Virus record (IMG/VR): IMGVR_UViG_3300037502_001322
Location: 1 to 64,000 of that record
From: a virus
Length of the DNA stretch: 64,000 nucleotides
Strand: one strand, 5' to 3'
The notes beneath the pieces were generated by a model. It did no database searches. It was not told where the DNA came from and saw only the letters and a program-made list of their open reading frames with translations. Shown here piece by piece: positions 1 to 63,322 of the stretch (the first letter of the stretch is position 1; every line of letters begins with the position of its first letter). Both the position numbers and the translations under genes were made by a program.

Positions 1-242
1 AGAATACTAATCTCTTTGATGCACTTTGTCAATTGTTTCTGAACAAATTCTACATCTTGTTGGGCATAGTTAGTGTCTTCTGGTTGAAATTTAGAAGCTT
101 CACAATAGGCTGAATACATCTTCAACCCTTTCAGTTCACCATTATAAGATGTTATTTGGTTTGAAATTGATTGAATATAGAAAAGGAGAGCTTCACTCCC
201 CAAATCTTTAATATCATTAGTTGATTCTATTTGTTTAATCAT
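1..242 (-). CDS. Hypothetical protein, 3' end cut off by the window
   Basis: An open frame of 80 codons starts with ATG at 242 and runs off the left edge without a stop. The start overlaps the stop of the upstream gene (ATGATTAA), which is usual for coupled translation in this leftward cluster. The visible part is soluble and helical-looking (starts MIKQIESTNDIKDLGSEALL; contains KQLTKCIKEI near the edge). I do not recognise a family. The gene is real by context and spacing; its function is unknown. Confidence 0.7.
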   Translation of the reverse strand, partial: MIKQIESTNDIKDLGSEALLFYIQSISNQITSYNGELKGLKMYSAYCEASKFQPEDTNYAQQDVEFVQKQLTKCIKEISI

Positions 243-930
243 TTACGTAAACCTCAGACTCTTTGTATAATTCTCTTACCCAATAATGACCATCGGTTAT
301 CATTTTAAAATAATCATACTCTTCCATGGTTGGCTTCATCCAATCTTTAAAGTAATCTTGTAGGTCATAAGAGTTACCATTCAATATTGCTTTTAAAGTA
401 ATGAAATCAATTATCAAAGGAAAATTCTTATACCTACAAACACCATCTTTAACAAAACCAAGTCCCGTAGAGTAACCTTTACCCGTTAAAACTATTTGTT
501 CAGGGTAATTGTCTTCAATACTAAATACTGCATTTGGTAGTAATCTCGCTATGAAATTTTTGAAATTAAAATTACCAAAATTGAGGCCGCTTTTACTTGG
601 ATAATCTACAAGAATCTTACCGGGAACATTTTTGACACAATTATCTGCTTCTATAGTAGACAAAGAGTTTTTAATATTGCAATCTAAATCTTGGGCGATA
701 TGTGCCCAATGTTCACCCCATTCTTCAAATTCGTTAAATAAGGAGTCTACATCAGATAATTCCTTATCAATACTGCTAATAATAGAATTAGCTTCTGATT
801 CATAATTCTCATCAATAACTTTCATCAGATCTAATAGAGATTGTCTAATAGATCTTACCGTAGCATCTCTCTCAAAACTATCTGGTTTATCAACAACACC
901 AAATCTCTGTTCATCAGTTATCTTCCACAT
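235..930 (-). CDS. Hypothetical protein with C-terminal WxxPTxxE motif
   Basis: A 231-residue protein starting at an ATG preceded by AAGGAG. The N-terminal third is acidic and helical. Near the C-terminus it carries DYFKDWMKPTMEEYDYFKM, the signature shared by at least six other small proteins of this phage (4442, 5081, 7974, 9440, 10536, 62758). The shared block looks like a small helical domain ending the protein, while the N-terminal parts differ. It is translationally coupled to the truncated gene on its left and lies 11 bases after the nucleotidyltransferase-like gene. Function unknown. Confidence 0.75.
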   Translation of the reverse strand: MWKITDEQRFGVVDKPDSFERDATVRSIRQSLLDLMKVIDENYESEANSIISSIDKELSDVDSLFNEFEEWGEHWAHIAQDLDCNIKNSLSTIEADNCVKNVPGKILVDYPSKSGLNFGNFNFKNFIARLLPNAVFSIEDNYPEQIVLTGKGYSTGLGFVKDGVCRYKNFPLIIDFITLKAILNGNSYDLQDYFKDWMKPTMEEYDYFKMITDGHYWVRELYKESEVYVND

Positions 931-941
931 TATTAAACTCC

Positions 942-2111
942 TTAGAAGTTACTTTCATTATCTTTTAGTAGATACTTAGGATCAAACACAGGTTTCTCTT
1001 TATAAAGAGTCTTCTTGCAATCAGGGTCAACCATCTCAAGATAGTCCATTGATACTTCATTCTGAGGAAGAAACAGCCTGAATTCTTTCCAGAAATGATG
1101 GTGTTTGATACTCCAACTTTTACCAAAATCTACTTTAGTAGAACCTTCCATATCTCCTGCCACCATTTCAAAATAGACACAAGAATACTCTAAATCTTCT
1201 TCGTTAGATTTGTTATCGTACCTCTTAAGAACAGTATAAGTCAAATTCTTTTTCTTAGCAGAATCTATTTTAGTTCTAAAATCAGAGAAGTTAGTCCACT
1301 TGACAGTAGTGTTGTCCCTACTATTAGGAAGAAGATTATAACTTGACTCTAATTTACAACTATCAACAACCAAGTCGATTGCTTCTGTTGGGTTAAATTC
1401 CCAACCTTCTCCTAATTTCTTTTCCAGTTGTTCTTTAAGTTTCTTAACTTTTAGACCATACATAGATCCAATGTGTTCTATTAATTTTTCGGAAGAACTT
1501 AAGTCAATCTTTGAAATCTCAGAATATACTTTAAGCTTTTCCGACAGTGGTGCACTGTACCCTCGAAATGAATACTTATCAAGACGCAAGGCGCTCACAA
1601 GAGGGTAATCTGTTCCTTTCCAGAACATCAGTTTACGTTGTCCTAAATGTTTAAAGAAATCCCTATGGTGAACAATAATTTTAGAGTGAAAACTATAGGC
1701 ACACATATTGATTGTAAAGTCAAAAGATTTGAAAATAGACTCACAACTGCTAACCTGATACCAATCAACTAACTCTCTGTCTTTAGGGTGGAACTTATAG
1801 TAAATAAGTTGCAGTATTATTCCTTGACTTTTGATAGTCATTGACTTATCAGTTATGAAATATTGTGCGTCAAAATTACTTGGGAGCGTAAAGATAAATT
1901 TATCTAACATCTCTTTAGATTCGAAATACAAATCAAAATCTGAGATTTCAGAAGAAGAGAAATAACTTGTCATTGCGCCACCAGCAAGAATAGCTTTTGA
2001 GGCAACAAGAGCTTCTTTAACGCTATCACTAAACGTGTTCTCTATCCTTTTAGTGAACTCATTATCTTCCATAATTTCTATGCTTTCTTGATTTTCTTTA
2101 AATTCTACCAT
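942..2111 (-). CDS. Nucleotidyltransferase-fold protein (poly(A) polymerase/CCA-adding head-like)
   Basis: A 389-residue protein with an AAGGAG ribosome site. Residues of about 43-62 read ILAGGAMTSYF..SEISDFDLYFES, matching the GG-x(n)-S..SDxDxY signature of the polymerase-beta nucleotidyltransferase fold; the two acidic residues of SDFDLY would be the metal ligands. Downstream motifs (FDFTINMCAYSF; a later RDFFKHLGQRKL..YPLVSALRLDKYSFRGY) resemble the head and neck of tRNA CCA-adding/poly(A) polymerases. The substrate cannot be read. It could be an RNA-tailing enzyme, a tRNA repair enzyme, or a toxin-like nucleotidyltransferase. It overlaps the next upstream gene by 14 bases, so it is co-transcribed. 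Confidence 0.6.
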   Translation of the reverse strand: MVEFKENQESIEIMEDNEFTKRIENTFSDSVKEALVASKAILAGGAMTSYFSSSEISDFDLYFESKEMLDKFIFTLPSNFDAQYFITDKSMTIKSQGIILQLIYYKFHPKDRELVDWYQVSSCESIFKSFDFTINMCAYSFHSKIIVHHRDFFKHLGQRKLMFWKGTDYPLVSALRLDKYSFRGYSAPLSEKLKVYSEISKIDLSSSEKLIEHIGSMYGLKVKKLKEQLEKKLGEGWEFNPTEAIDLVVDSCKLESSYNLLPNSRDNTTVKWTNFSDFRTKIDSAKKKNLTYTVLKRYDNKSNEEDLEYSCVYFEMVAGDMEGSTKVDFGKSWSIKHHHFWKEFRLFLPQNEVSMDYLEMVDPDCKKTLYKEKPVFDPKYLLKDNESNF

Positions 2112-2724
2112 TACTATTAAACTCCTTATTGAATTTCTCCACTAATTGATCAAAATAATCATCTCTAATATAGTCTTGAGTGTAGTCTTTATAGTTCGAC
2201 TTGTCAACAAATAAATTTCCTTTATGGAAACACCTTCCGTAAAAACAAATATTGAACAACTCTTTTACCTTTTGTTCGAATATGTTTAACGGACAGTTAA
2301 TAACCTTCTCATTAGCTTCTATTGGATAAATATCAGAGACCATCCACAGATAATCTATTTGATCGGATGATAACACACGACATTCTTCATTACCTTGTTG
2401 CTCTCTGTTTAGGTCAATCATATCGAAGACTGTATAAACATCAAACAGCCCAGCATAAACATTTGGGTTATTGATTAAGGATACCGCCCTACTTTTTACT
2501 TGTTGTGTTTTAGGTAAAACAATTAATTGGAATTGATTTAAATTAAACTGTCTTCTAAACATCACATTAAAATGAGTAGCTGACCCGTAAGGGTTTATAG
2601 AGTGATTGAATACTATCAACGTACCAATAGTTATAGTAGAGTTAGTTGCATAACTCTTTGGATGAAATTTAAAAGAAAAAGAGCCCCTTGATAGGGGCTT
2701 TGCAGTTTCTAACTCAACGTTCAT
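2098..2724 (-). CDS. Hypothetical protein with terminator hairpin in its first codons
   Basis: A 208-residue protein. I chose the ATG at 2724 rather than a longer frame because it overlaps the stop of the upstream gene, as throughout this cluster; longer versions lack a ribosome site. No known domain is recognised. A DYLWM segment (SSDQIDYLWMVSDIYPI) is weakly like the C-terminal motif family in the neighbouring genes. Codons 9-15 form a G+C-rich hairpin followed by a T-rich run that looks like an intrinsic terminator, so expression may depend on translation of the leader. Confidence 0.65.
   Translation of the reverse strand: MNVELETAKPLSRGSFSFKFHPKSYATNSTITIGTLIVFNHSINPYGSATHFNVMFRRQFNLNQFQLIVLPKTQQVKSRAVSLINNPNVYAGLFDVYTVFDMIDLNREQQGNEECRVLSSDQIDYLWMVSDIYPIEANEKVINCPLNIFEQKVKELFNICFYGRCFHKGNLFVDKSNYKDYTQDYIRDDYFDQLVEKFNKEFNSNGRI
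2671..2699 (-). terminator. Intrinsic terminator inside the 5' end of a gene
   Basis: On the minus strand AGCCCC-TATCAA-GGGGCT is followed by CTTTTTCTTTT. Stem and U-rich tail are those of a Rho-independent terminator. It lies wholly within codons 9-18 of the gene ending at 2098, so it may attenuate the distal genes. Confidence 0.6.
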
Positions 2725-2977
2725 TAATAATCTCCATATACTTTTCTTTAATCTTTTCCTGCTTCTCTTTGTCTTCAATAGATTCACACATGAAGAAATA
2801 ATCCCACTCGTCTGTTGTAGGTTCTGTTTGATTATTAAAATAACTTTTAGCTTGTGTTGCCAAACTGTGTAGACTTTCAATTACAATTAAGTTCCCATCA
2901 GCAAGACCTTCAACCTTAGTTCCAAATAAATCTAATGAGAAATTGTGAGGATTGTAAGATTTACTGATATTTGTCAT
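2714..2977 (-). CDS. Small hypothetical protein, W-P-T-motif relative
   Basis: An 87-residue acidic protein. The ATG at 2977 (MTNISKSYN) is preferred over the longer frame; the gene overlaps the end of the VWA gene by 17 bases and its own stop overlaps the next start. The C-terminal part contains EPTTDEWDYFFM, matching the P-T-x-x-E-x-x-Y-F-x-M core of the phage motif family but without the upstream W. Function unknown. Confidence 0.6.
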   Translation of the reverse strand: MTNISKSYNPHNFSLDLFGTKVEGLADGNLIVIESLHSLATQAKSYFNNQTEPTTDEWDYFFMCESIEDKEKQEKIKEKYMEIINER

Positions 2978-4442
2978 AATTAATCGCCTTACCGAAAGGA
3001 GCATCAAAGTTATTATTATCGTTAATGATGAACAATGTCTTTTGAGAATAAGGTTTAAATTTATTCTTTAGTTCTTGATTCATATTAAAGAAACCATCAG
3101 TGAATATAACCAACTGGTCAATCTTCTTGAGTTCTTCCAGTTTAGGGACAATACAACCAAGAGATGTCCCACCGCCTCCTTTCAATTGGAACGATTTCAT
3201 CTTTGTTAGATTAGATTGGTCATAAGTGTAAACATCATAAGCTTTAGTGTCCCAACAGAACACATTAATTTCAAAACAATTATATTGTTTAGTGATACCA
3301 GCAACTTCACTTAGCACTGTGTGCAATGCTTCTTGTGTCACCGACCCTGAACTGTCAACAGCAATAACCACAGAAACAGTTTCTTGTCTTGCTTTAGCTG
3401 GCAACACAATTTGTTGATTATAGTTCAATTGCCCAGACTCTTTCAAGTGTTTTGTCAGTGCAAAAGAACGACGATGGATTCGTTTATAATCGTGGTTGTG
3501 TTTAATCAAAGAAGGAATAACTTTCTTAAGATGCTTCTTCCAATTGATTTTAGGTTTCTTCCACTCCTTCATAATATCACGGATGTGAGAAGGTGTGCTG
3601 TCACCAGCATTCTGAGAAGCCATCTGAATATCAACTTTCATTTTATCAGAGGCTTTCTGATAGTCTTCTTTAGACATCTCAAACTTCTTGCCTGCAAGAG
3701 GATCAAGTCCTAACATCTCTTCCATAGGAGATTGAATAGAAGGTTTGTCTTGTGAGGAAGAAGGCATATGATAAGAACCTTTAGAACTTGCACATTTCCC
3801 GTTGTCCTCTGAATCTTTATTATCTTGTCGTTCTTTCTTCAACAAATCATAGACTTGTTCAGAAGTCAAATCATCATATTGTTCACTGTAGAGTCCTGCT
3901 GCAATAATAGGAGATTTAGTGATAGCTGCATTATAATCACCTTTGTACCAATCTTTCACAATTTGACGGTTAATCTTATAATCCCCAGCTTCATTATAAA
4001 GTTCAGGATCTCTTGTTCCTCGTCTCAGGAAATGTTCATTAACAATATGGTCAATCTCATGCCTGAACACAAACATGATATCATTAACATTGCAACCTTT
4101 CTTTTTAGTTTCAAGAATTTCTTTCAGTTCGTCATATTGTTCTTGTGTGACTCGTTGTTCAGTCAACATATGGTTCAAACGAGAAAGACTTTCATTATAA
4201 CGAACTTCAGGCATACCAGCAACAAATTCAGGATTAAACCAAATAGAGAAACCATCTGTTCCGGCGGTAGGAACAAAAGAATAATCTAACTTTAACTTTT
4301 GGTTCATTGCAAGCTGAGCATAGAAGGGATGTTCTCTAAGCATATCAAGGCGAGCCTTGCGAATCATCTTGATAGCTTTGTCTTCAAGCGCTTTAATAGA
4401 ATCTTTTTCTTCTTGACTCATAAGTTTCATTTTAGTATTCAT
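2961..4442 (-). CDS. VWA-domain protein with N-terminal metallopeptidase-like domain (DUF2201 type)
   Basis: A 493-residue protein of two parts. Residues 1-200 hold an HExxH zinc motif, HEIDH at 128-132 with another His at 137, as in the 'putative metallopeptidase' half of DUF2201 proteins. After a low-complexity linker (about 205-240), residues 355-493 form a VWA domain with MIDAS motif DSSGS (363-367), a GGGGTS loop (422-426) and IFTDG (446-450). VWA proteins of this type pair with MoxR AAA+ ATPases, and a MoxR gene lies about 1 kb upstream in the same direction. The pair probably acts as a chaperone/remodelling machine on host or virion proteins; the client is unknown. Confidence 0.8.
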   Translation of the reverse strand: MNTKMKLMSQEEKDSIKALEDKAIKMIRKARLDMLREHPFYAQLAMNQKLKLDYSFVPTAGTDGFSIWFNPEFVAGMPEVRYNESLSRLNHMLTEQRVTQEQYDELKEILETKKKGCNVNDIMFVFRHEIDHIVNEHFLRRGTRDPELYNEAGDYKINRQIVKDWYKGDYNAAITKSPIIAAGLYSEQYDDLTSEQVYDLLKKERQDNKDSEDNGKCASSKGSYHMPSSSQDKPSIQSPMEEMLGLDPLAGKKFEMSKEDYQKASDKMKVDIQMASQNAGDSTPSHIRDIMKEWKKPKINWKKHLKKVIPSLIKHNHDYKRIHRRSFALTKHLKESGQLNYNQQIVLPAKARQETVSVVIAVDSSGSVTQEALHTVLSEVAGITKQYNCFEINVFCWDTKAYDVYTYDQSNLTKMKSFQLKGGGGTSLGCIVPKLEELKKIDQLVIFTDGFFNMNQELKNKFKPYSQKTLFIINDNNNFDAPFGKAINYDKYQ

Positions 4443-4828
4443 TACATATTACCCTCAAAATATTCATCACCAAAAGCATAATAACAGTTTTCTTCCGACC
4501 AAGGTAACCTAAAACCTTCTACCATTTCAAGATAATTCTGTTCCTCTTTAGATGGTCTCTTCCAGTTTTTGAAATAAGAAACCCACGAATACATAAGAAT
4601 ATCTTTCCCGTAGACTGTCAAGAAACTTTCGTTGTAAGGATGAACAGTAAACCCGTAAGTAACACCCAGAGCACCCCACGTTTTGTTAATGCCGTTCCAC
4701 CAAGAAGGTTGCCAATGGTCTCTGCGAGGGTGATACATTTCCTTTCTTTCCTCAAAATCGTTATGTTGAAACTTATCCAACCAATTTTTATTCGCTAAAT
4801 AGAAGTCATTGTCAGTTTCTACTATCAT
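4442..4828 (-). CDS. Hypothetical protein with C-terminal WxxPSxxE motif
   Basis: A 128-residue protein with an AGGAG site overlapping the upstream stop. The C-terminal part carries YFKNWKRPSKEEQNYLEM followed by RLPWSEEN, a near copy of the same block in the gene at 5081-5425. The N-terminal half is aromatic-rich (HWQPSWWNGINKTWG). Its last codon overlaps the VWA gene start (TAATG), so the two are translationally coupled. Function unknown. Confidence 0.7.
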   Translation of the reverse strand: MIVETDNDFYLANKNWLDKFQHNDFEERKEMYHPRRDHWQPSWWNGINKTWGALGVTYGFTVHPYNESFLTVYGKDILMYSWVSYFKNWKRPSKEEQNYLEMVEGFRLPWSEENCYYAFGDEYFEGNM

Positions 4829-4832
4829 TTTA

Positions 4833-5078
4833 TTAAACTCCTAATATTCCACAAATTAACATAGACCATAGACAAACAATAGCACCAAAGGACATAAGAT
4901 TCAAGTAAACCGAACCATATTTCTCATTCTTAGATTTACAATCTTTATAATTTAGGATTCTAACAAATTCTTTCTGTCCAAGGTAATAATAAAAGAATAC
5001 CAGCCAAACAGATAATTGAGTCCCGACAATAGCAAAAGATTTAGTTAACTCATAAGCAGAAAAGAATTGTTCAATCAT
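4833..5078 (-). CDS. Small two-helix membrane protein
   Basis: An 81-residue protein. The ATG at 5078 is chosen because GGAGGATT precedes it. Two hydrophobic helices are visible, around residues 12-33 (AIVGTQLSVWLVFFYYYLG) and 60-80 (LMSFGAIVCLWSMLICGIL), separated by a basic loop. It is probably an inner-membrane protein. It overlaps the end of the preceding gene. No family recognised. Confidence 0.6.
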   Translation of the reverse strand: MIEQFFSAYELTKSFAIVGTQLSVWLVFFYYYLGQKEFVRILNYKDCKSKNEKYGSVYLNLMSFGAIVCLWSMLICGILGV

Positions 5079-5080
5079 TG

Positions 5081-5425
5081 TTAATCCTCCCAAATAAAGG
5101 GTTCGTCTTCACTCCAAGGAAGACGATAGCCATTAACTAATTCATAATAACCCATCTCTTCTTTGGTTGGTCTTTTCCAGTTAAGGAAATATTCCTTTAT
5201 GTTATTCTTATCCTCACTCTCCCCATAATTTAACGCTATTAAATTCCCGTTTTTATTAACTTCTAAAGAATATTCATTAGATAATACATACAATTTAGAA
5301 GGGTCTCTGTGTATATAATCAATATTACCGTCCCACCATGCAGGGACATCATCGATTCCATAATCATTGTGTTCAAATTTATCTAGCCAACTCTTATTCA
5401 GTTTTACAAACATATGAACATTCAT
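5081..5425 (-). CDS. Hypothetical protein with C-terminal WxxPTxxE motif
   Basis: A 114-residue protein, first gene after the MoxR terminator. It ends with YFLNWKRPTKEEMGYYEL and RLPWSEDEPF, closely matching the protein at 4442-4828, so the two are tandem paralogues in the C-terminal block. N-terminal sequences also share SWLDKFEHNDY / NWLDKFQHNDF. GGAG precedes the start by about ten bases. Function unknown. Confidence 0.7.
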   Translation of the reverse strand: MNVHMFVKLNKSWLDKFEHNDYGIDDVPAWWDGNIDYIHRDPSKLYVLSNEYSLEVNKNGNLIALNYGESEDKNNIKEYFLNWKRPTKEEMGYYELVNGYRLPWSEDEPFIWED

Positions 5426-5474
5426 ATTCTATAATCTCCAATATACATATAACCATAGATTAATCATAACACAA

Positions 5475-5513
5475 ACAAAGAAAAAGGCAACCATCTTTTC
5501 AGATAGTCGCCTT
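5475..5513 (-). terminator. Intrinsic terminator after the MoxR gene
   Basis: On the minus strand AAGGCGACTATCT-GAAA-AGATGGTTGCCTT forms a 13-pair stem (two G-U pairs) with a GNRA-type loop, followed by TTTCTTTG. It lies just past the stop of the MoxR gene at 5530. Confidence 0.8.
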
Positions 5514-5529
5514 AAAATTAATATTTTAT

Positions 5530-6681
5530 TTATTCAGAGAAGCAATCTTGAAGACTCATATATTTAACAATAATCTTCTTCATGCTTCCAAGTTGAGCAG
5601 CTTTAGCTGAAAGCATTGTCCTAGTTTTAGCTTCACGTATTGTGTCATTAACTTTACGAACTGTCGCAACGAACATCTCAACTTCTTGCCCAAAAGACTC
5701 AAGTAAGAAGTGGAAGTAGTTATCCAACTTAACCATGAAATCTTCAGTTGGTAGAACATCTTCAGGTTTTTCCATATGCTCTTTAATCAGAGACAAACAA
5801 CCTTGAGTGATCATGTACATATGGGAAGGTTCATAATCGTCTGCTTCATATTTCTTAACTCGACCTTCAAGGATATCAAACGCTGAAGGAAGTTTACCAT
5901 TAAGTTGATAAGAAGCTTTCAGCTCAATCATTGGTGCTGAGCCGACCAAACCTTGAATGCCAATCCAACCAAGACGTTCACTAATCAGTTTCTTATCCAT
6001 CTCATGCAACACACCAGAAACAGCTTCCCAGCTACGGGCAGTGCAGAAAGAAGGTTCATCATTCTGAGGATCTGTGTTAAAGAATTCAGGATTAGAGCGC
6101 AACAGACCTACCACCGCAGGATGAATGTTATTATCTGAAGCATAACCTTCCAACCATCCTTCAACGTCAGGTTTAACTTCAACAATCATTAGACGGTTAG
6201 CCAAAGGACTAAGGAGTTCATAACCTGCACCATTATCGAACACACGGTTAGCAGCAAGAGAAATTCGTGCTTTCTCAGGGAAATGAAACTCACCAATGCG
6301 ACGATCCAAACAAATCTGATAGCAAACATGTTGCATTGCTGGTGTTCCGTGAAGAACCTCATCCAGAAAGATGATGCCCTCCCAATCAGGATCTTTAGGC
6401 CAGAAACTAACAAAAGCATAGACTGTTTCAACTGAACCGTCTTCTTGTGTCACAGGAACTTGAATACCTGAAAGGTCTGTTGGTTCTTTATCTGACACAC
6501 GAACATCAATAATGTTTCCATTATAACGTTCTTGAGCATATTGATTAACAATATGGCTCTTCCCAGACCCTGCTGGACCAAGGACAAGACAAGGACGTTT
6601 AACACGAAACCCCAATTCAATCATTTCAGGAATATCTTCAACACCGATTTGATTAGTGAAAATATAATCTTGTGAACTCAT
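5530..6681 (-). CDS. MoxR-family AAA+ ATPase
   Basis: A 383-residue AAA+ protein with Walker A GPAGSGKS (35-42), Walker B IIFLDE (103-108) and a sensor-1 AANR (143-146). Length and order fit MoxR/AAA_5 ATPases, which form hexameric rings and work with VWA-domain partners to remodel protein complexes. The matching VWA protein is encoded at 2961-4442 with three small genes between. AAAGGAGAA precedes the ATG. A strong terminator follows at 5475-5513, so in most transcripts this gene is separated from its partner. Confidence 0.85.
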   Translation of the reverse strand: MSSQDYIFTNQIGVEDIPEMIELGFRVKRPCLVLGPAGSGKSHIVNQYAQERYNGNIIDVRVSDKEPTDLSGIQVPVTQEDGSVETVYAFVSFWPKDPDWEGIIFLDEVLHGTPAMQHVCYQICLDRRIGEFHFPEKARISLAANRVFDNGAGYELLSPLANRLMIVEVKPDVEGWLEGYASDNNIHPAVVGLLRSNPEFFNTDPQNDEPSFCTARSWEAVSGVLHEMDKKLISERLGWIGIQGLVGSAPMIELKASYQLNGKLPSAFDILEGRVKKYEADDYEPSHMYMITQGCLSLIKEHMEKPEDVLPTEDFMVKLDNYFHFLLESFGQEVEMFVATVRKVNDTIREAKTRTMLSAKAAQLGSMKKIIVKYMSLQDCFSE

Positions 6682-6711
6682 TAGCTATTCTCCTTTGTTT
6701 AACTTAAACTA

Positions 6712-7254
6712 TTATCTCTTAAGAAATACATGATTGTCAATCTTTTTAACTCTAACCATGCTGTCTGACCACTTCGGTTTCACTTTATAAGGATTGAAAT
6801 AATGGTCAGCATTTCCGACCACATTCTTCCCTTCACCTTTGATAACTTTACTCGCTATTCTGTAAGCTGTCAACCTAGATTTGAATTCTCTCATTTTTAA
6901 ATCTTCAACATCTTGCCAGAAACTAAACTGAGCTTTTTGTTTAACAACCCCAACTATTGTATCAGGCCAATGCTTAGAAACAACCCTATTTTCAATAACA
7001 TTCGCAATAGCATAAAGACCATCAATACTTTCTGACCTACCTTCGTGGTACAGAGTCAATGCTAACATTTCAAGGTCTTGTTGTGGTGATCTTGGAATAT
7101 TAACAGGTTCATAGTAGTAAATCCAGTCTGACGAATAGTTATATTCTGTTTGAACATTAGCAGAAACTAAATTAGAGAAAGCTAATGAAGTTACAAAACC
7201 TACAGATAAAATAAAAGCAGGGATTTTAACCCTGCAAATAAAGTTAGTGTTCAT
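6712..7254 (-). CDS. Cell-wall hydrolase, SleB-like (Hydrolase_2), with signal peptide
   Basis: A 180-residue protein. Residues 9-33 form an N-terminal hydrophobic segment ending near SANV, a likely signal peptide. Residues 62-180 show the SleB pattern: LALTLYHEGRSES (catalytic Glu probably 71), AIANVIENRV, WPDTIVGVVKQKAQFSF and HYFNP. The family cleaves peptidoglycan glycan strands as a lytic transglycosylase. This gene is far from the late lysis cassette, so it may act early or be a secreted/virion enzyme. Codons 7-18 contain a terminator-like hairpin. AAAGGGA precedes the ATG. Confidence 0.8.
   Translation of the reverse strand: MNTNFICRVKIPAFILSVGFVTSLAFSNLVSANVQTEYNYSSDWIYYYEPVNIPRSPQQDLEMLALTLYHEGRSESIDGLYAIANVIENRVVSKHWPDTIVGVVKQKAQFSFWQDVEDLKMREFKSRLTAYRIASKVIKGEGKNVVGNADHYFNPYKVKPKWSDSMVRVKKIDNHVFLKR
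7203..7235 (-). terminator. Intrinsic terminator inside the 5' end of the hydrolase gene
   Basis: On the minus strand GCAGGG-TTAAAAT-CCCTGC is followed by TTTTATTTTATCTG. It lies in codons 7-18 of the SleB-like gene, overlapping the signal-peptide coding region. It resembles the arrangement at 2671-2699. Confidence 0.6.
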
Positions 7255-7265
7255 TGTCAGTCCCT

Positions 7266-7547
7266 TTACTGGTTATTAATTTTAATCAGAACTATACAAG
7301 CGGCACGAAGAATATTCTTATCAATATGATAAGTTCCAAGAACAGGTGTTGGTCCGTGATATGCTATAGGATAAACAGAAACACCAGCTTTGAATTCTAA
7401 ACTTATTTGATATTCTTGACACAGCTCAAGAGTTCTCTTCCAATCATTGCACCAATCGACTGGTTTATCTGTTGATTCCACAATATCGTTAACCAGTTCA
7501 TTAATGGTTTTGTCTGAGACATTATTCCAATCTACATTAACTACCAT
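7266..7547 (-). CDS. NinX-like protein (DUF2591 type)
   Basis: A 93-residue protein with an AAGGAG site. The pattern of a short N-terminal helix, W near residue 32, a central ISLEF...VYPIAY and a terminal LRAACIVLIKINNQ resembles DUF2591/NinX proteins of lambdoid phages, which usually end in a LRAxxIVxLxxxQ block. The family has no assigned biochemical role. It lies between the hydrolase and a frameshifted gene in one leftward run. Confidence 0.55.
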   Translation of the reverse strand: MVVNVDWNNVSDKTINELVNDIVESTDKPVDWCNDWKRTLELCQEYQISLEFKAGVSVYPIAYHGPTPVLGTYHIDKNILRAACIVLIKINNQ

Positions 7548-7601
7548 TTGTTATACTCCTTTATTATCTGATTACTCAGCCTACACACTTGGTTGCCTAA
7601 A

Positions 7602-7893
7602 CTATTCACCTAACACCATATTGATATCATCTCTCAAATCTCTGAGACTGTCAAGATCAAAAACACAATTAACTTTATAAGGTTTTCCTTGTGCTCCGAC
7701 AAAAAAAGGGAAGTTCTACGTGAGCAACATTATCTTCTTTAGAAGAATCATAATTGTTCACAACACCAGTGAAAGCATCAACCCACTGATAAACTATCTT
7801 CTTATCAACCTTTCTTTTATTATGAAAGTCAACATTAATCACATTAGATTTGTGAATCTTAGTGCGAGGGTCAGTGTAAGTTTCTTGTGTCAT
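7602..7893 (-). pseudogene. Hypothetical gene broken by a frameshift at a T7 run
   Basis: The frame starting at ATG 7893 (AAGGAG site) reads MTQETYTDPRTKIHK... up to ELPFF and then hits a stop after 72 codons. If one T of the seven-T run (near 7703-7709) is skipped, reading continues sensibly as FVGAQGKPYKV and on to DDINMVLGE, stopping at 7602-7604. The restored protein is about 96 residues. This is a single-base insertion, a sequencing error in the homopolymer, or a +1 recoding site. Function unknown. Confidence 0.6.
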
Positions 7894-7973
7894 TTGTAGT
7901 TCTCCTTATTATCTTGATTTAAAATATTAACATTCATAGTTTATCTTAAATTCATACTGACATACTATAGCAC

Positions 7974-8492
7974 TTAAAATGCCTTGTCAATATCTTTTCT
8001 ATTCTCTACGATAGGGAGTGGCTGACCTTCACTCCAGATCAAATCAATATCAGTTACCATTTTAAAATAATTAAGTTCGTCTCGTGTAGGTCTTGTCCAA
8101 TCTTGAAAATATACAGGAAGATGAATTTCCTCCTGATTTGATGTAATTATTCTGCAATGATTGTTACCATAGTCGTACACCATTCCTTGTTTAATTGAAC
8201 CTCGATCTCCTTGGTACACTGCAAGATAACGTGTAGATTCGTTATGAAAAAGTTCAGGATAAGGCATACCTAATGAGTCAAGAAACCTTACCATCAAAGA
8301 AATAACTTCACCGAACTCTCCTTGCAACATCCATTCATCTCGTGAGTGTAAATGGACACCGAAAGTCTTAACATAGAGGGGTTCATAAGGCTCTAAATTA
8401 ATTTTACTTATAGGTAAATTATCTTCGTGATAATACCTGTTCATCCAACCTTCCGTGAAATTAAACACCTTCATCTGTTCTTCATAACTCAT
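7974..8492 (-). CDS. Hypothetical protein with C-terminal WxxPTxxE motif
   Basis: A 172-residue protein; ATG 8492 (MSYEEQMKVF) is chosen because AAGGAA lies about eight bases upstream, whereas the longer TTG start lies on top of it. The C-terminal block YFQDWTRPTRDELNYFKM followed by LIWSEGQPLP places it in the phage motif family. It is the first gene of the leftward cluster, downstream of a conserved leader element at 8603-8673. The right-arm paralogue at 62758 lies downstream of the same element. Confidence 0.7.
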   Translation of the reverse strand: MSYEEQMKVFNFTEGWMNRYYHEDNLPISKINLEPYEPLYVKTFGVHLHSRDEWMLQGEFGEVISLMVRFLDSLGMPYPELFHNESTRYLAVYQGDRGSIKQGMVYDYGNNHCRIITSNQEEIHLPVYFQDWTRPTRDELNYFKMVTDIDLIWSEGQPLPIVENRKDIDKAF

Positions 8493-8602
8493 AATCAATT
8501 TCCTTGTTTAATAAATATCACCTATATAAATATGCAACAATCAAAGCATACACTAATCTCCACAGAACGTCAACTTGAAACCGGATTATACTTGTTAAAA
8601 CA

Positions 8603-8673
8603 CACCTAAAAACGATTTCTAGGTCATACCCCAAGCCTACCTACAGGGGCACTGTTAGAGTCGCTTAGAATAC
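8603..8673 (-). promoter_or_regulatory. Conserved leader/promoter element, copy A
   Basis: Read on the minus strand this contains TCTAACAG, a CCCC...GGGG hairpin around TGTAGGTAGGCTT, then TAGAAATCGTTTTTAGG. The same order occurs at 62644-62713 and 63162-63241, each upstream of a gene start. A TATAAT-like hexamer (AGTATAATCC) follows about 15 bases further, near 8585. It is likely a promoter with operator, or a structured 5' leader. Confidence 0.6.
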
Positions 8674-8735
8674 ACCAGAATCAGCTAAATTGCCTATACT
8701 TTGTTATAGCTGTGAAGCACTTCTTGGATTTCAGG

Positions 8736-8762
8736 CAAAAGAAAACCCGGCGCGAGGCCGGG
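8736..8762 (-). terminator. Strong leftward intrinsic terminator
   Basis: On the minus strand GCCCGGC-CTCGC-GCCGGG is followed by TTTTCTTTTG. A near copy with the same flank (TTTCAGGCAAAAGAAAACCC on the plus strand) occurs at 57171-57199. No protein gene lies immediately to its right on the minus strand, so it implies a leftward non-coding transcript. Confidence 0.75.
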
Positions 8763-9359
8763 CTTACTAATAACCATTTTTAAACAATAGCATCAACAAG
8801 ACCTTGGGTGGTAAGTTTAACACAGAGACTTGTGCGTTACTTATCCTTCAAGGTCTTTTATCTAATCCACACCTATCTTAGTTATTATACTACCCAACAT
8901 TCAAATAGATGATATCTATAAGAAAGAGATATAACTGTATAATGAAATTAAGATAATTAATCAACATTATTATCATTTATCAGGGACGTAATTTTCTACG
9001 TTTACGGGATACAGTTCAACACTGTATCAGTGGTATGACTTATTATAAAAGATAAATCATCACTCTTTATTAGATCCGTAAGAGAAGGCTCGTGACACCC
9101 TGTAGACCCGGTTATTATGATAGCGACAAAGGTCTTCGTTCCTTTGTTGTGCAAGCTAACATCATTCCCCGGTTTACCACCCGTTCTAACCTGTTTATCC
9201 CTTAAGCATTATTGCAACATATTGTAAGCGTGGTTGGGAAGTCGTCTTGAAAACTCTGATAATAATGGTATTATTGTAGTGATAGTAACCCTAATCACTG
9301 TAGGTTATACACCCTCTGGTTGATTATACCTTTTTATCCAAGTTTTGTATTTATCGTGG
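8763..9359. other. Structured non-coding region between divergent gene blocks
   Basis: About 600 bases without a plausible gene between the leftward cluster and the rightward replication cluster. It holds several hairpins: AAGACCTTG/CAAGGTCTT closing a long imperfect stem at 8798-8857, ACGTA/TACGT near 8985-9001, GATACAG/CTGTATC at 9008-9028, and ACAAAGG/CCTTTGT near 9128-9150. A minus-strand TATAAT lies at 9323-9328. A terminator closes it on the left. Candidates are a non-coding RNA, a replication origin, or both. Confidence 0.5.
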
Positions 9360-9389
9360 TTGACTTGGTGTAAAACCACGTGGTACAAT
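9360..9389 (+). promoter_or_regulatory. Sigma-70-type promoter for the rightward early block
   Basis: TTGACT (9360-9365), 18 bases, TACAAT (9384-9389). The -35 sits in an inverted repeat, GTGGTT...AACCAC. It lies 50 bases before the first plus-strand gene at 9440. Confidence 0.6.
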
Positions 9390-9439
9390 CAATCATAGTC
9401 AAAGTTTATCACTATTTACTATGAAAATCAAGAGGTGTT

Positions 9440-9832
9440 ATGTCTTTGGAATATGAAAGGTACCAATCGTTTAACAAATTCTTAGAAGATAACGGAGATT
9501 GGTGTTTTATGCCTGCAATAGGGTTCAACACGATTTACCCTGTATGTTTTATAAATAAAACAGAAGATTTTATTGTTAGAGTAGAAGCTTTCTCGCTATC
9601 TAACCTTAATAGTATTCTTTGTATAAATGATAGAAATAGCTTACTTATGTTCACTGACACTGAAGGGTGGTCTTCAAAAAGTGTAATCCTTGTAGGAAAA
9701 GACCTTAACAGGGGTACAGATGATGTGTGTAGTATGTTTGAGGATTGGAAGACTCCAACACAAGAAGAGAAAGACTATTTTAAAATGATTTATGGTATGA
9801 CAATACCGTGGAATATTTTTGTCTGTAATTAA
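9440..9832 (+). CDS. Hypothetical protein with C-terminal WxxPTxxE motif
   Basis: A 130-residue protein, first of the rightward block, with AAGAGGTG before the ATG. It ends with MFEDWKTPTQEEKDYFKMIY and TIPWN, close to the C-termini at 10536-10834 and 62758-63111 (MIYG-x-x-IPW form). The N-terminal part differs from its relatives. Function unknown; its position suggests early expression. Confidence 0.7.
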   Translation: MSLEYERYQSFNKFLEDNGDWCFMPAIGFNTIYPVCFINKTEDFIVRVEAFSLSNLNSILCINDRNSLLMFTDTEGWSSKSVILVGKDLNRGTDDVCSMFEDWKTPTQEEKDYFKMIYGMTIPWNIFVCN

Positions 9833-9912
9833 ACTGTTTGACTCTGAATTATTACTGTGATAAGGTATAATCATATTGATAATCACTTAGTCGCCTTCTT
9901 GGAGAATCTAAT

Positions 9913-10512
9913 ATGAATGTTAAATACAACACCAACGACTTATCAGAAAGATTACTTTATATCGAGAATCTTGAACACAAGATAAAATGTTTAAAGGGTC
10001 AGATTATTGCTAACAATGAAGGCGAATCTAAAATAAGGGAACATAAAGTCAGGTTGGAACGCTTTCAACAAGAATTAAATAAATTTAAAGGATCTAATAT
10101 GGACAGAATCCCTCTTACAGACAATGACGAGCACCATGATAAAGCCCAAGTCGGTTGTGAATCAGAAATTCCTTTTGATTTGCTTGTTGCAAATAAATAT
10201 AAACAGTTGTATAATTCTGCTATGTCAAGGAAGAAAGAGTTTGCACTGACTCTGAATGATGTTAGCAAGTTGCTCAAACGAAAGACCTGTCAGTATACAG
10301 GAGTTACTTTCGGGGAAGGCGATTTGTGCAGAAGCATAGATAGATTTGATAACAAAATAGGTTACACTAAAGAGAACTGTTTTGCTGTTACTAAACGAGC
10401 TAACGATATTAAGAATCATTTGCTTGAAAGGGAAGATTCTGCATTAGGTTTGAAATTTAAAGAGTTGAAGAGGTTTGTTGAAAGTTTAGATAAACTTGGT
10501 TTTAAAAGTTAA
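9913..10512 (+). CDS. HNH-like endonuclease-fold protein
   Basis: A 199-residue protein. Residues 1-60 look like a coiled coil (repeated LEHKIKCLKGQI, RLERFQQELNKFK). The C-terminal half reads CQYTGVTFGEGD...RSIDRFDNKIGYTKENC...KRANDIKN, a pattern seen in phage HNH-type nucleases where C-x-Y-T-G, S-x-D-R-x-D-x-x-x-G-Y and a late N-x-x-K stand for the fold. It may be a homing-type nuclease or DNA-binding relative. A TATAAT (9866-9871) with a poorly spaced -35 lies upstream. GGAGAA precedes the ATG. Confidence 0.5.
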   Translation: MNVKYNTNDLSERLLYIENLEHKIKCLKGQIIANNEGESKIREHKVRLERFQQELNKFKGSNMDRIPLTDNDEHHDKAQVGCESEIPFDLLVANKYKQLYNSAMSRKKEFALTLNDVSKLLKRKTCQYTGVTFGEGDLCRSIDRFDNKIGYTKENCFAVTKRANDIKNHLLEREDSALGLKFKELKRFVESLDKLGFKS

Positions 10513-10535
10513 GTTGATTGAAGGAGAATTGTGTG

Positions 10536-10834
10536 ATGAAAAATCAATATGGGTGGGAAGTTGGAGAGATTGGTATAGTAACTGAAGAAAGTGGATTTTC
10601 TAAAGGAAGTATTGTACAATTCGAAACAGATGACGGGACTGACACCCCCCTTTATGGAAGCTATTGAGTGGTAATTGCGAATATAGATTATCTGAAGGAA
10701 ATCAACCGGGAGCATATTGTTTTTATGATATTGTAATCAACCTATCAGGTTATTTCAAGAATTGGAAAAATCCGACACAAGAAGAAAGAGACTATTTCGA
10801 AATGATTTATGGAATCGATATTAAAGATATTTAA
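10536..10834 (+). pseudogene. WxxPTxxE-family gene with a frameshift at a C6 run
   Basis: ATG 10536 (AAGGAG upstream) opens MKNQYGWEVGEIGIV..., which stops after GSY at about 10667. In another frame directly after the CCCCCC run at 10645-10650 the sequence continues to SGYFKNWKNPTQEERDYFEM and MIYGIDIKDI, ending at 10834, exactly the family's C-terminal block. Adding one C restores a protein of about 99 residues. Either a real mutation or a homopolymer error. Confidence 0.65.
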
Positions 10835-10850
10835 TAATAGGGGAATATTC

Positions 10851-11306
10851 ATGGCTACGACCACATCTAACAAAGTCAATATATTTATTGGTAAGAATAT
10901 TGAAGAGCTAACCTTTACTAAAGGTGGTTACTCTCAAAAAGAAAAACAAAACCTACCTTTTATTATAGAAGATCATAAGACAATAGTAGTTGATGTGATG
11001 AGTGCAGCTTGGGAATTTCCTGAAGAAAGGAAACACACGCACAAGCTTGCACAAGAATTAGTCAGACAGTTAAAGATGATTGAATATTACGATATTAATA
11101 TTATGACACACTCAAAAACTTGTATTGAAGTGGTCAGTGAGTTTATAGTGCAAGGTAAGTTGAAACCAGAACAAGTTTCTGTAACTATAATTTCTAATGA
11201 TAATAAAAATATTGAGCAAGTTTGCGGTTTTGATAGGGATGGTTGTTTAGAAGAAGGTTGGCCTATTGGCTTCATGAGTGTTGATTGGCAAGAATTAGAA
11301 TTGTGA
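10851..11306 (+). CDS. Hypothetical protein, possibly the C-terminal half of an ABC/OLD-type ATPase
   Basis: A 151-residue protein; ATG 10851 (MATTTSNKVN) is preferred over an upstream in-frame ATG because AGGGGA precedes it and the upstream one lies in the previous gene. The stretch TIVVDVMSAAWEFPEERKHTHKLAQELV...INIMTHSKTCIEVVSEFI resembles the Walker B/H-loop part of SMC/OLD-type ATPases (D..EaglHp...l...THS). No P-loop is present, so it would be inactive alone. Uncertain. Confidence 0.5.
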   Translation: MATTTSNKVNIFIGKNIEELTFTKGGYSQKEKQNLPFIIEDHKTIVVDVMSAAWEFPEERKHTHKLAQELVRQLKMIEYYDINIMTHSKTCIEVVSEFIVQGKLKPEQVSVTIISNDNKNIEQVCGFDRDGCLEEGWPIGFMSVDWQELEL

Positions 11307-14716: not shown

Positions 14717-15229
14717 ATGAAAGACAATCAAAAAGAACAACAAGAAGTTATTCGCAATGTTCAATCTGCATTGAACCTGCTTGACACTTATATGCAATCA
14801 ACCAATCAAGCTTTCAGGAATGTTCTTATTGCTGGAGTTCAAACAGGAGGATTCAATTCTCTTGAAGTGCAAGTGATTAGCCTTAAGCGATTCATGAATG
14901 CTCTTGGTTATGTGGAAGTCTATGCTGGAGAAGACAACGAGCAAATGACACGAGGATTTATTCTTAAACATCCTTATGTCCATAAAGACTGTTTGCCTGT
15001 CTCTGTTAGTTTTAATGATGCTATTTATCTGCATAACGTTGCTTTCGCTGAAATGAATAATCTGCCTTTTGTGACTATTAAGAAAATTCCTCGTGGATTG
15101 ATTGAAGATGCACGGCACTTCAAGATTGTTCAAACTATCGGACTTCAGGTTGTGAAGCAAACAATGAAACGAAATAATAAACGTGGTTCTGTTATTCGGA
15201 CAACAAAAGAATTTGTTAAGTTTGTTTAA
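14717..15229 (+). CDS. Hypothetical protein upstream of the primase-helicase
   Basis: A 170-residue protein with GAGAGGAATAGG before the ATG. The N-terminal half is helical, the C-terminus basic (KQTMKRNNKRGSVIR). Tight linkage to the primase-helicase suggests a replication-associated role, but no domain is recognised. Confidence 0.6.
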   Translation: MKDNQKEQQEVIRNVQSALNLLDTYMQSTNQAFRNVLIAGVQTGGFNSLEVQVISLKRFMNALGYVEVYAGEDNEQMTRGFILKHPYVHKDCLPVSVSFNDAIYLHNVAFAEMNNLPFVTIKKIPRGLIEDARHFKIVQTIGLQVVKQTMKRNNKRGSVIRTTKEFVKFV

Positions 15230-35441: not shown

Positions 35442-35801
35442 TTATGAAAGAGATACTGCCCCCTTTTCTTCATCAGTTGCGTCTGTTGTAAGATAAACCA
35501 ACCTAAATCTTTTATTTTGACCAAAATTATCTTTATCTATTCTTCCATAGTTCTTAACCATATCCCTAACATACAAAAAACCTTTAGGAACATTCTCCAT
35601 ATAATTAAATGGAAGAAGCAGATTTTGCCCAACAGACAACATGAAACTAACAACAGGGTCTTCTCCTGTTACTCCAATATAACACATCCATGTCTCAGAA
35701 TATGTATTCCATCTTATTCTGAAGTCATAGACTTGTCCTTCTAACTCAACTCGGTAAGTTGAATCAACACTCTTACCACAAGGGATAGAAAACATTGCCA
35801 T
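35442..35801 (-). CDS. Baseplate plug-like protein (DUF6983 type)
   Basis: A 119-residue protein, FSIPCGKSVDSTYRVELEGQ, YDFRIRWNTYSETWMCYIG, QNLLLPFNYMENVPKGFLYV. This 'WN-x-R/Y...W' pattern fits the small baseplate plug/DUF6983 proteins found between Dit-like and hub genes in myoviruses. Its end overlaps the putative extended start of the hub gene. Confidence 0.65.
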   Translation of the reverse strand: MAMFSIPCGKSVDSTYRVELEGQVYDFRIRWNTYSETWMCYIGVTGEDPVVSFMLSVGQNLLLPFNYMENVPKGFLYVRDMVKNYGRIDKDNFGQNKRFRLVYLTTDATDEEKGAVSLS

Positions 35802-36451
35802 TAAAATCCCCCTATTCTCTCAGCTTGTTGTGCTCTTGTGCGCTCAACATGAGACTGTTTCTGAGAAGCGCCATCTGATTTATTTTCAGTTCCGTCTATG
35901 TTAGCATTAGAGGATTGTGTAGAAGACCCATTAGCTGTTTGAGAAACAGGTTGAGATGTTCCTTCTAACGTAACAGATTGTGCAGTTACAAATCGAACTC
36001 TCTCTATTCCTATCCTAAACACTAATTGGTCTGCTTCTTGTGCATTAACGTTATAATCTAAAGATGTCACTACACAATCATCGAATATCTCAAATTCAGT
36101 TATAAGAGTGAAAATAACTTTTGATTCTTTTAATGTTCTTAAATAATCTACAGCTTTCTGTGTACGTTTAACATCTAAATTATATTCAACAATATTACCT
36201 TGATATGGTTGGATAGGGGTGTTAGTCACAACCCCTATAACTTCGAACTTATCGTTATTACTATAAATATGATCAGCGATATCTTGTTTTGATTCCACAG
36301 GATGCAGTGTTAAATTATTAGTCAGATTGACATTAACGTTTGTGACTGCATCAAATATCAGCGTGGAAAAATCAGCGGCTGAAGCACCGCTGACATATGG
36401 TAATTGTTTACCAAAAGATGTACCACCGGCCACTATAACATTAGTTGCCAC
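35801..36451 (-). CDS. Dit-like baseplate/tail-tip protein
   Basis: A 216-residue protein starting with GTG 36451 after AAAGGAGG. The block NNLTLHPVESKQDIADHIYSN with FEVIGVVTNTPIQPYQG is the 'T-x-H-P-V-E...I-x-D-H' signature of the Dit-like domain at the tube tip. The C-terminal 50 residues are low-complexity Ser/Asn/Gln (TSQPVSQTANGSSTQSSN). It sits between tape measure and plug genes, as expected for the first tail-tip ring. Confidence 0.7.
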   Translation of the reverse strand: MATNVIVAGGTSFGKQLPYVSGASAADFSTLIFDAVTNVNVNLTNNLTLHPVESKQDIADHIYSNNDKFEVIGVVTNTPIQPYQGNIVEYNLDVKRTQKAVDYLRTLKESKVIFTLITEFEIFDDCVVTSLDYNVNAQEADQLVFRIGIERVRFVTAQSVTLEGTSQPVSQTANGSSTQSSNANIDGTENKSDGASQKQSHVERTRAQQAERIGGF

Positions 36452-36462
36452 TAAGCCTCCTT

Positions 36463-39400
36463 TTAATCTTCAGAAATATCATGAACTACGGTGCTTCTCC
36501 AACCTTGTAGATTAGCTTCAACTCTTGTATCAACAAACTTTTCAGCACCATTGCTCGGATTGAAGATAACTTTGATTTCCCCTTTCTCTTGGTCAGTAAC
36601 CGATTTAGTTACCTTCAGTTCTGTAGGTTGGTTGTTAGACTTATTGACAGATGTGGCTGAATCAGATACAGTTGGAGGTACAAACATGTTGTACGGATTT
36701 AACCTGTCACCTGTTTCTTTAATAAATTTATCTCTTTCTTGAGAGGATTGAATCAAGCTTGTTTTGTTAGATAAATCATTAAATAAGTTTTCAAGTTTAT
36801 GACGAAGACCTTCAAAGAATGCGCCTATTTTATCAAAGAATGGTTTTGCTTTCTCATACATAGACTTAGCCCACTCTGTTGCACCTAAAGCATGGAGAAG
36901 TTCTCCTACCATAATAAGTGTACCAACAAAAGGAATAAATCTGCCAAAAAGCAAACCTAAACTTCCTGCAACTCTACCGACTCCTCCTGCTGCACCAGAT
37001 AAAGATCTTGCTCCGAAAGCAGTGGCGAAGATGCCCCCAGCCTTACCGAAAGGTAGAAGCTTAGAACCTAACCACATTAACGAGCTTCCAAACAGCTTCA
37101 TAATTTTGAACAATGACAAGAATATAAATGCTGCTGGAGCTATTGCTGCGAGCCACATTGCAATATTAGCACCATTAGATTTCATGCTCTCTTCTGTGAT
37201 ACCTAACCAGTTAGCAAAGTCTGCCATGTAGGCGACTGCAAGTTCTATAGGTGTTACTACTAACCACAATGCTCTATGAAACACACCAGATAAGAAATTA
37301 GCAACTGGTTGTAACATGAACATTAAGTTTTCTAATGCACCGAATAGAAATTGCAACCCTGGTCCTAACCCTGCATCAAAAGATTCTCTCTTAAAATCAT
37401 TAAACGTATTGATTAATCTGTTAAGGTCAGCATTGAAGTTTTTAGTCATAGTATCAAGTTCACCAGACACTTTCTTTCTCATTAATGCTGCCAATTTAGG
37501 TAATGCTTCCAAGGGAAACATCAACCCATTTTCCATATCTTTACGGAGTTGTTTGGTGGATATTCCCATTGCCTCAGCCATTAAGGCTACGGCACCGGGC
37601 CGTTGTGTTCAGTTAAGCTCGCAAAACTTAACCCGCACCATTATGTGCAGCTACATATCTCTATGCAGACCAGATCATATCATTATCCTTAACTAAGGAT
37701 ATCTACCACTTCGAATGCCCTTAGCTTGCACCCTACGCCTTTCGGCTGATCGTTGAACGTTCATCTTATTTGTTAAAGATGATTCGCTGCTGATTGTCTT
37801 TATTGTAATGATTATTAGGGTTCGTTAAATATCACTACTTAATATCCTACATTACACTTAACAAGAGTTTCCAGCAATTCAATAGATTATTCGATACACA
37901 TTACTGTGTAAAGGGACTTTTCCAAATCCTGTCACCTAGTTGGTTATTTAATTCTTCCCAGACGTTCAGTTAAGTTCGCAACACTTAACCCGCACCATTA
38001 CGTGCTGCTTATAGTTTCCCCATAAGAGCAGACCATATCATCATCCCGTTAATCGGGGTTGCCTCCTGTTTGGAGTGCCATTAGCTTGCACCCTACTCGG
38101 TTACATTCATCACCGATGGTCGTTGAACCTTCTTTCTCATTGGTTTTATTAGATATTGATTAGATATATGTTTCCAAGATATACCGGATCTTATTTTAGT
38201 TGCTTGTTGTTTAGATATCCCAAATTCAATAACAGCTTCTTTTGGAGAACCACCTTCTTCGAAGAACTTACAAACTTTATGGACAACTTCTTCCGTCAGC
38301 TTAGATCTTCCATTAAGTTCTCCTTTCAAAGACGGAATTAATCCATCTTCCCACGCCTGTATAGTATTAGAGAATAAATCGCACCACTCTAAGTTATTTA
38401 CGTTGTTATTCAATTTATCATTATCTAAATGTTTTACTAAAACCTCACCCCAATGTTCTTTGGAACATTTCTCTACTAATTCTTGAGATGGACTATTAAG
38501 AAAAAGTTCAGCTACAAGCCTGTGAATCTTTAAAGTTTTTACATGACCATTTATAGTGACTTGTGTAATGCGATAGCCTTGTTTATTGATTCTAGTGTAT
38601 CTGACCTTTTTGTTTTTATAATTCCTAACTTCTCCGAGATTGGAGATCTCTAACATGGTGTAGATAGGATGACGTTTGTACTCAATGAGAAAACTTGGCT
38701 GCTGATTGCCCATTATTGACTCCTTAATTTAAAAAGAGTATTATACGCTAAACGTACATAATTGTCAATAATTAGGGTGTCCCAGCAATTAAAGAGGTTT
38801 TACATGGCCCAAGAATTAAGCCATGATTTGGTTTTTAGAGAACATTTGTTCGAGGGCTTTAAATATCCCATCCATTTCATCAGGAGTGTTACCAAAAGCG
38901 ACACCTGCTTCCATGAAAGAACTAAATATCTCGTTAACTTGTTCTAAAGGAGCTCCTGCTGAATTAGCAGCAAATGCAAATTTAGCAAAAGATTTAGCAG
39001 AATCAAGATAGGTCACACCTAACCTTTCTGCCTCTTTTCTTAAATACTCCATCTGGGAAGTTGCTTCATCCCCGAATACAACTCTCATCATCGATTCCAT
39101 TCTTTGGAATTGACTTCCTATAGTTGCCACACTCATAACAGCGCTAAACGCCGTAAATGAGGCTGTGCCTGCAACCATAGCACTTCTAAGACCTTTATAC
39201 TGGTCAGACAATCCTTTGACTGAAGCCGAATGCCTTCTCATATCAGAATTAAGGATGTTCAACCTTATTCTATAAGTAGAAGCTGTAATTGAACCAATTT
39301 TTAATTCATTATTGAGGTCATTCAATCTATCCCAATACTGTTTTATCTCAGCAGGTCTAAAAGATCCTCCTCTTAATCTTAAAGTATCTTTGAATCTTTC

Positions 39401-62576: not shown

Positions 62577-62604
62577 TTGACACTAAAACAGGTTGCGCTA
62601 TCTT
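62577..62604 (+). promoter_or_regulatory. Sigma-70-type promoter for the right-hand plus-strand cluster
   Basis: TTGACA (62577-62582), 16 bases, TATCTT (62599-62604). It precedes leader element copy B and the gene at 62758. Confidence 0.55.
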
Positions 62605-62643: not shown

Positions 62644-62713
62644 GCATTCTGAGAGATTCTAACAGCAACCCTATAGGTAGGCTTAGGGTAGGGCATAGAA
62701 ATCGTTTATGGTG
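62644..62713 (+). promoter_or_regulatory. Conserved leader/promoter element, copy B
   Basis: TTCTGAGAGATTCTAACAGC, a CCCTA...TAGGG hairpin around TAGGTAGGCT, then ATAGAAATCGTTTATGG. It aligns over about 70 bases with copies A (8603-8673, minus) and C (63162-63241). It ends 45 bases before the gene start at 62758. Confidence 0.6.
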
Positions 62714-62757
62714 CTGTATAACACGCTTAGTCTTAGCTTAAGGAGAAGGTCTAAGGT

Positions 62758-63111
62758 ATGTTCTATGAAGAGTTTTATGAACCAAACAGAGTGTGGTTGG
62801 ATAGTGCAACTTCAGAGAAGGTTTCTAAAGGTGCTTACTTTACTGAGTGGAAGTTCTTGACTGAAGGTAGTGATGCAATTTTCCATGTTTCTCACAGTCC
62901 TGCTACGGTAGTCATAGATTTTGAGAACAACGGTAAATATGGTAGGTTTGTGGCTTGTAATTTCAGAGAAGACCCTACTAACAGAAAACTACTTGCATTG
63001 CAATACTTTGAAGACTGGACTAAACCAACTGAACAAGAGAAAGATTACTTTGAGATGATTTATGGTGTTAGAATTCCTTGGAGTGTTGACACACCTTTTG
63101 TTATGATGTAG
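62758..63111 (+). CDS. Hypothetical protein with C-terminal WxxPTxxE motif
   Basis: A 117-residue protein with AAGGAGAAGG before the ATG. It ends with YFEDWTKPTEQEKDYFEM, then IYGVRIPWSVDTPF. The family member at 7974-8492 also sits behind the same leader element, so gene and control region have spread together. Function unknown. Confidence 0.75.
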   Translation: MFYEEFYEPNRVWLDSATSEKVSKGAYFTEWKFLTEGSDAIFHVSHSPATVVIDFENNGKYGRFVACNFREDPTNRKLLALQYFEDWTKPTEQEKDYFEMIYGVRIPWSVDTPFVMM

Positions 63112-63161
63112 AGTATTGTAGATGTTGTGGCACGTTACCGTGTAGTATAGTAATTTACAGT

Positions 63162-63241: not shown

Positions 63242-63322
63242 TCATTTTAGCCTGAACAAATGCACGCCAATCTGACGTTTAGGTCAGACTCTGGATAATA
63301 TCCTCATAATTAGGAGACAACT

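Follow-up and report, generated by a model that had tools for sequence, protein, structure and literature searches.

The locus considered here combines a terminator, a non-coding gap, a switch of coding strand and a cell-wall hydrolase gene oriented opposite to that of relatives, and it raises the question of what the gap between the two divergent gene blocks does: whether it produces a non-coding RNA, serves as a replication origin, or marks the boundary between two operons.

The gap and its surroundings

The window, i.e., the whole stretch of DNA that was analysed, comprises bases 1-64000 of a 103,675-base IMG/VR record from an uncultured bacteriophage. Four group I introns (55035-55278, 55637-55869, 49205-49451 and 37651-37935, all on the minus strand), three tRNAs, a baseplate protein, a portal, a family A polymerase and a primase/helicase point to a myophage, and the closest matches to its primase come from the Klebsiella phages KP13-16 and vB_KpM_FBKp34 (50.6% and 50.4% amino acid identity), which their database records class as Stephanstirmvirinae. 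The first block of genes (235-8498) faces leftward; it is followed by a rightward block that begins at 9440 and reaches about 23.4 kb, a leftward one extending to 62 kb, a rightward one as far as about 95.6 kb, and then another leftward block. At its end, the record breaks off within a 29-bp tandem array of 5.4 identical copies (19520-19675 of L005, the piece that covers the end of the record), and it is therefore probably incomplete, with a likely assembly break at this end. In the convergent gap of the same piece, a cluster of strong inverted repeats at L005 12868-13010 (record 96868-97010; z about -7 on both strands) adjoins AACAAAT-type repeats.

The first leftward gene (7974-8492, minus strand, 172 aa) and the first rightward gene (9440-9832, plus strand, 130 aa) carry the same C-terminal tag and stand on either side of the gap 8610-9439, which is the longest stretch of the window without an open reading frame of at least 60 aa; the longest one wholly within it has 50 aa. 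Protein-coding potential is thus lacking, as it would be in a non-coding RNA gene, and the absence of a coding gene claimed by an earlier note on this DNA is borne out. A decayed tagged gene inside the gap was rejected by tblastn of three tagged proteins at E <= 5, and no tRNA or tmRNA was found there. A known RNA family was likewise rejected, as no Rfam 15 model, those of ROOL and GOLLD included, matched the gap, either in a scan of the window at gathering thresholds or in one of 7900-10300 at E <= 5. ROOL and GOLLD are described as large ornate phage RNAs (PMC12286853); the gap resembles them in being a large, many-helix non-coding stretch in a phage, but differs from them in matching none of the Rfam covariance models. 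Beyond the first rightward gene, the HNH/endonuclease VII-like gene 9913-10512 (plus strand) also matches the PHROGs annotated as decoy of host sigma70 and Srd anti-sigma factor.

No relatives of the gap were found when it and its surroundings were compared with phages and plasmids by blastn, all matches being terminator-like sequence or short weak pieces. Scans of viral_contigs with the proteins encoded at 9440-9829 and 7974-8498, with the primase alone and with the tag alignment retrieved no relatives either. The primase alignment matched 11 loci in viral_contigs at 38-54% identity, and the gap is absent from all 11; a 21-mer of the gap had no match in the same collection.

A terminator without an operon

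A leftward intrinsic terminator was located by the terminator scan at 8743-8765 on the minus strand, its T-run continuing to about 8736. Its hairpin (8765-8743) has nine pairs, six of them G-C, and stands directly before the T-run tail TCTTTTGCCT; on this sequence basis, its prediction as a real intrinsic terminator is confirmed, and with it the strong minus-strand terminator reported earlier. The surrounding interval 7000-11000 holds five terminator-like sites, this one included, against 1.6 +/- 1.2 in shuffles. It was also correctly stated that no coding gene lies upstream of the terminator for 670 bases: according to the list of open reading frames, the next one on the minus strand (14798-15160) is antisense inside a plus-strand gene, and leftward genes resume only with the block at about 23.5 kb.

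A copy of this terminator, 93% identical over 40 nt, occurs at 57200-57161 on the minus strand, at the end of a tRNA operon. The order along that strand is a 12/12 promoter (58424-58397), tRNA-Arg, tRNA-Leu, tRNA-Thr, the terminator (57200-57181) and, after another 50 nt, a second 12/12 promoter (57131-57103). The phage thus possesses terminator-promoter boundaries, and the layout predicts that the terminator at 57.2 kb ends an RNA operon and protects the operon behind it. The two sites share a G+C-rich stem and a T-run besides their sequence identity; unlike its counterpart, however, the 8743 terminator has no leftward gene upstream and no strong promoter directly after it, as downstream there is only a 9/12 site (8573-8545) in front of the leftward gene 7974-8492. 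Similar terminator stems were found by blastn in 146 phage records, lambda included, where the sequence 35795-35824 has the stem shape in common with the 8743 terminator (about 93% over 30 nt).

Gene orientation to the left of the gap offers a possible explanation for this orphan terminator. The cell-wall hydrolase gene 6712-7254 and the primase gene lie on opposite strands, whereas both genes are on one strand in all six relatives with a hydrolase match (10 relative loci compared). This suggests that the left block has been inverted, and an inversion would separate a terminator from the operon it once served, so that the orphan could be explained without an RNA gene; the gap is a possible candidate for the junction. 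We give an even chance to the reading of the gap as an operon boundary between divergent blocks, probably at or near an inversion junction, with the terminator insulating the leftward operon. Inversion would have turned the left block round, with the gap at or near the junction, and the terminator would stop transcripts coming in from the right before they reach the leftward operon, whose first gene would start after a copy of a reiterated element (copy A, described below). The rightward operon would start from a promoter-like site at 9360-9389. The hairpins of the gap would represent untranslated or unused sequence. The insulating role, the origin of the boundary by inversion and the absence of a dedicated RNA gene from these hairpins are what we infer from this arrangement.

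Transcription, folding and replication

The promoters in and around the gap bear on each of these readings. The TATAAT that had been noted on the minus strand at 9323 is indeed present (9328-9323), but it makes a weak promoter candidate: its -35 region, AATACA at a spacer of 17, matches at three of six positions, the promoter scan did not list it, and 8500-9440 contains three further exact TATAATs on the same strand. On that strand, the best score within the gap is 9/12 with a -35 match of 3/6, and no site reaches 10/12. The whole record contains 18 sites of at least 11/12, seven of them 12/12, and none of these falls in the gap; 13 of at least 11/12 were observed in the window, against 2 to 7 in mononucleotide shuffles. 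Among the promoter-like sites of the gap that precede a gene, the highest-scoring one is on the plus strand at 9360-9389 (TTGACT-18-TACAAT, with TG before the -10; 10/12), upstream of the gene 9440-9832.

The many hairpins described earlier are also real, in that both strands fold more stably than chance would predict. The plus strand of 8770-9340 reaches -140 kcal/mol (z -4.83), with none of 100 shuffles as stable, and the minus strand of 9320-8736, terminator included, reaches -152.6 kcal/mol (z -2.98), with one of 100 as stable. They are not unique, however. A scan that folded both strands of 92 windows of 500 nt, with 14 shuffles each, gave 184 values, among which 8801-9300 (plus) ranked 8th and 8701-9200 (plus) 12th, a result that supersedes a smaller scan in which the gap had come 2nd of 52 windows; the seven values below its best came from the windows at 47901 and 38801 (both strands each), 37401, 43701 and 17801, some windows that fold better being coding. 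Among the individual structures, a hairpin at 8798-8857 has 18 pairs, three of them G-U, when read as plus-strand RNA, and 9 + 7 pairs as minus-strand RNA (pair probability above 0.5), with z values for 8790-8863 of -4.43 (plus) and -3.50 (minus). A possible multi-branched domain at 8965-9267, predicted for the plus strand only, has as its closing stem a perfect inverted repeat of 11 bp (8965-8975/9257-9267), which could be a chance match in AT-rich DNA, and holds hairpins at 9008-9028, 9102-9177 and 9184-9239; for 8960-9275, z is -4.35 (plus) and -2.20 (minus).

In order to read the strand of a possible transcript from these folds, one can compare z values and G-U wobbles between strands. Nine sub-windows between 8770 and 9329 were compared, which overlap and were partly chosen after the fold was seen; in eight of them z is lower on the plus strand, and G-U wobbles account for 14 of 146 likely pairs on the plus strand versus 6 of 144 on the minus strand. 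As controls, the group I introns of the same phage show a lower z and more G-U on the sense strand in three of four cases, and the two strands of its tRNAs are poorly separated by these measures. The preference of the gap is a hint that would mildly favour rightward over the leftward transcription assumed earlier.

A non-coding RNA some 570 nt long, transcribed leftward from near 9315 to the terminator at 8743, would account for the placement and orientation of that terminator, upstream of which no leftward gene stands and whose near-identical copy ends a tRNA operon; the exact TATAAT and the z of the minus-strand fold are in keeping with it as well. We consider it unlikely all the same, given the poor -35 match, the lack of any stronger minus-strand promoter in the gap, the better folding of the opposite strand, and the absence of an Rfam match or a homologue. 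A structured RNA transcribed rightward, either free or as a long 5' leader of the gene 9440-9832, with hairpins at 8798-9300, would fit the stability of the plus strand, its G-U content and the strand preference that the introns mostly share; against this, no plus-strand promoter of at least 9/12 was found in 8500-8797, upstream of the first hairpin, no plus-strand terminator precedes 9440, the 10/12 site right before that gene makes a long leader unnecessary, and a single known sequence provides no covariation, so that we hold it to be quite unlikely. Doubtful to a still greater degree is the fuller proposal that the gap encodes a new, large and structured phage RNA some 500 nt long, transcribed rightward from 8798 to 9300, belonging to no known family and placed between divergent operons headed by same-tag genes, with the leftward terminator keeping its antisense transcripts out of the leftward operon.

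That the gap acts as a replication origin, as had also been proposed from its location, is very improbable. The GC skew does change sign at about 9 kb, hairpins occur on both strands and the AT content reaches 0.78 in 8900-8999, but the other strand switches each bring a change of sign too, and the skew thus follows the gene strand: in every one of the five blocks, coding-strand GC3 skew is positive (0.136, 0.158, 0.022, 0.136 and 0.026, four open reading frames that face against the rest of their block being set aside as probably spurious). An origin at 9 kb predicts strong skew at 97.6-103.7 kb and weak skew at 62.7-95.6 kb, and the observed values of 0.026 and 0.136 argue against it; the GC-skew check suggested earlier thus lends the origin no support, although on an incomplete record it is a weak test. 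Positive indications are lacking too, as the gap contains two-copy short direct repeats only and no iterons, none of the nine DnaA-box-like sites of the record lies in it, and repeats are more numerous in the gap near 96.5-97.7 kb.

We therefore return to the operon boundary, which is favoured by the twin boundary at 57.2 kb, by the lack of a leftward promoter of at least 10/12 in the gap and by the rank of its fold, which is high but not exceptional. Several points count against it. The orphan terminator would be more naturally explained by a leftward transcript, and in a densely coded phage it would be unusual for eighty-odd per cent of a kilobase to be filler. In addition, the gap folds with a lower z than the introns and tRNAs of the same phage: sub-windows picked after the fold was seen have plus-strand z values of -4.4 to -5.1, below those of all four group I introns and all three tRNAs on their own strands.

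An element and a tag beside the gap

Newly noticed here beside the gap is a reiterated element of about 75 nt. Copy A (8597-8672, minus strand; profile match 8671-8598) lies between the terminator and the leftward gene 7974-8492, and the 9/12 site mentioned above falls between it and that gene. Copy B (62645-62720, plus strand) stands just after a promoter-like site at 62577-62604 and before the gene 62758-63111, and copy C (63163-63248, plus strand) follows a promoter-like site at 63086-63114 and precedes an open reading frame starting at 63323; both promoter-like sites score 10/12. Copy A is 82% identical over 62 nt to 62646-62707 of copy B (E 8e-13), and copy C matches at 88% over 26 nt (E 4e-4). 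A probable copy D (L005 13491-13412, about 97.4-97.5 kb, minus strand) was found with a profile of the other three (E 0.029). The common core consists of ACCCT or CCCCT, 11-12 nt, GGGTA, a few bases and AATCG; a regular expression for it, written after copy D was seen, matches four places, against a shuffle average of 0.165, and none of 200 shuffles yielded four or more. The pattern GTAGGTAGGCTTRGGGTA had no match in viral_contigs, and a looser pattern matched seven viral and 13 bacterial stretches, all 20 of which lack the rest of the element and are taken as chance.

Each of the three clear copies precedes a gene, and two of these genes share the C-terminal tag. The consensus of the element forms one hairpin without double-sided changes and single copies fold differently, so that the element may act as RNA or as DNA. 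A comparison can be made with the put antitermination RNAs of phage HK022, which are about 70 nt long and lie downstream of the two early promoters (PMC9378689). The element is alike in its length of about 70 nt, in having two copies that head oppositely directed operons, and in the position of copies B and C downstream of promoter-like sites; it differs in that a two-hairpin fold is not common to its four copies, and in that the promoter scan found no promoter-like site between the terminator and copy A. A put-type antitermination RNA was not upheld for the element, as the two conserved stem-loops were not found.

The tag itself is a stretch of about 20-25 aa at the C-terminus of otherwise different small proteins, at no fewer than 13 places. 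The genes 7974-8492, 9440-9832 and 62758-63111 share it with a consensus of about YFxDWxxPTxxExDYFxM (also YFxDWxxPTxxExxYFxM). A tblastn search with 62758-63111 recovered 13 places at E <= 0.05, the query included: eight in the window (298, 2789, 4496, 5093 and 8016 on the minus strand; 9725, 10751 and 62758 on the plus strand) and five in L005 (5245, 6206, 8178, 8663 and 9842, all on the plus strand). No Pfam or PHROG match was found for the tag, and short matches occurred in Serratia phage Kashira (E 0.2) and Acinetobacter phage ABPH49 (E 0.9).

If the gap were to make an abundant structured RNA, it would be a phage RNA without known family at a transcription switch point; as the evidence stands, it is best read as an operon boundary. 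The element beside the tagged genes may matter more than the gap, since the recurrence of one sequence pattern in three copies, in a phage that is uncultured, suggests that they have a regulator or a leader in common.
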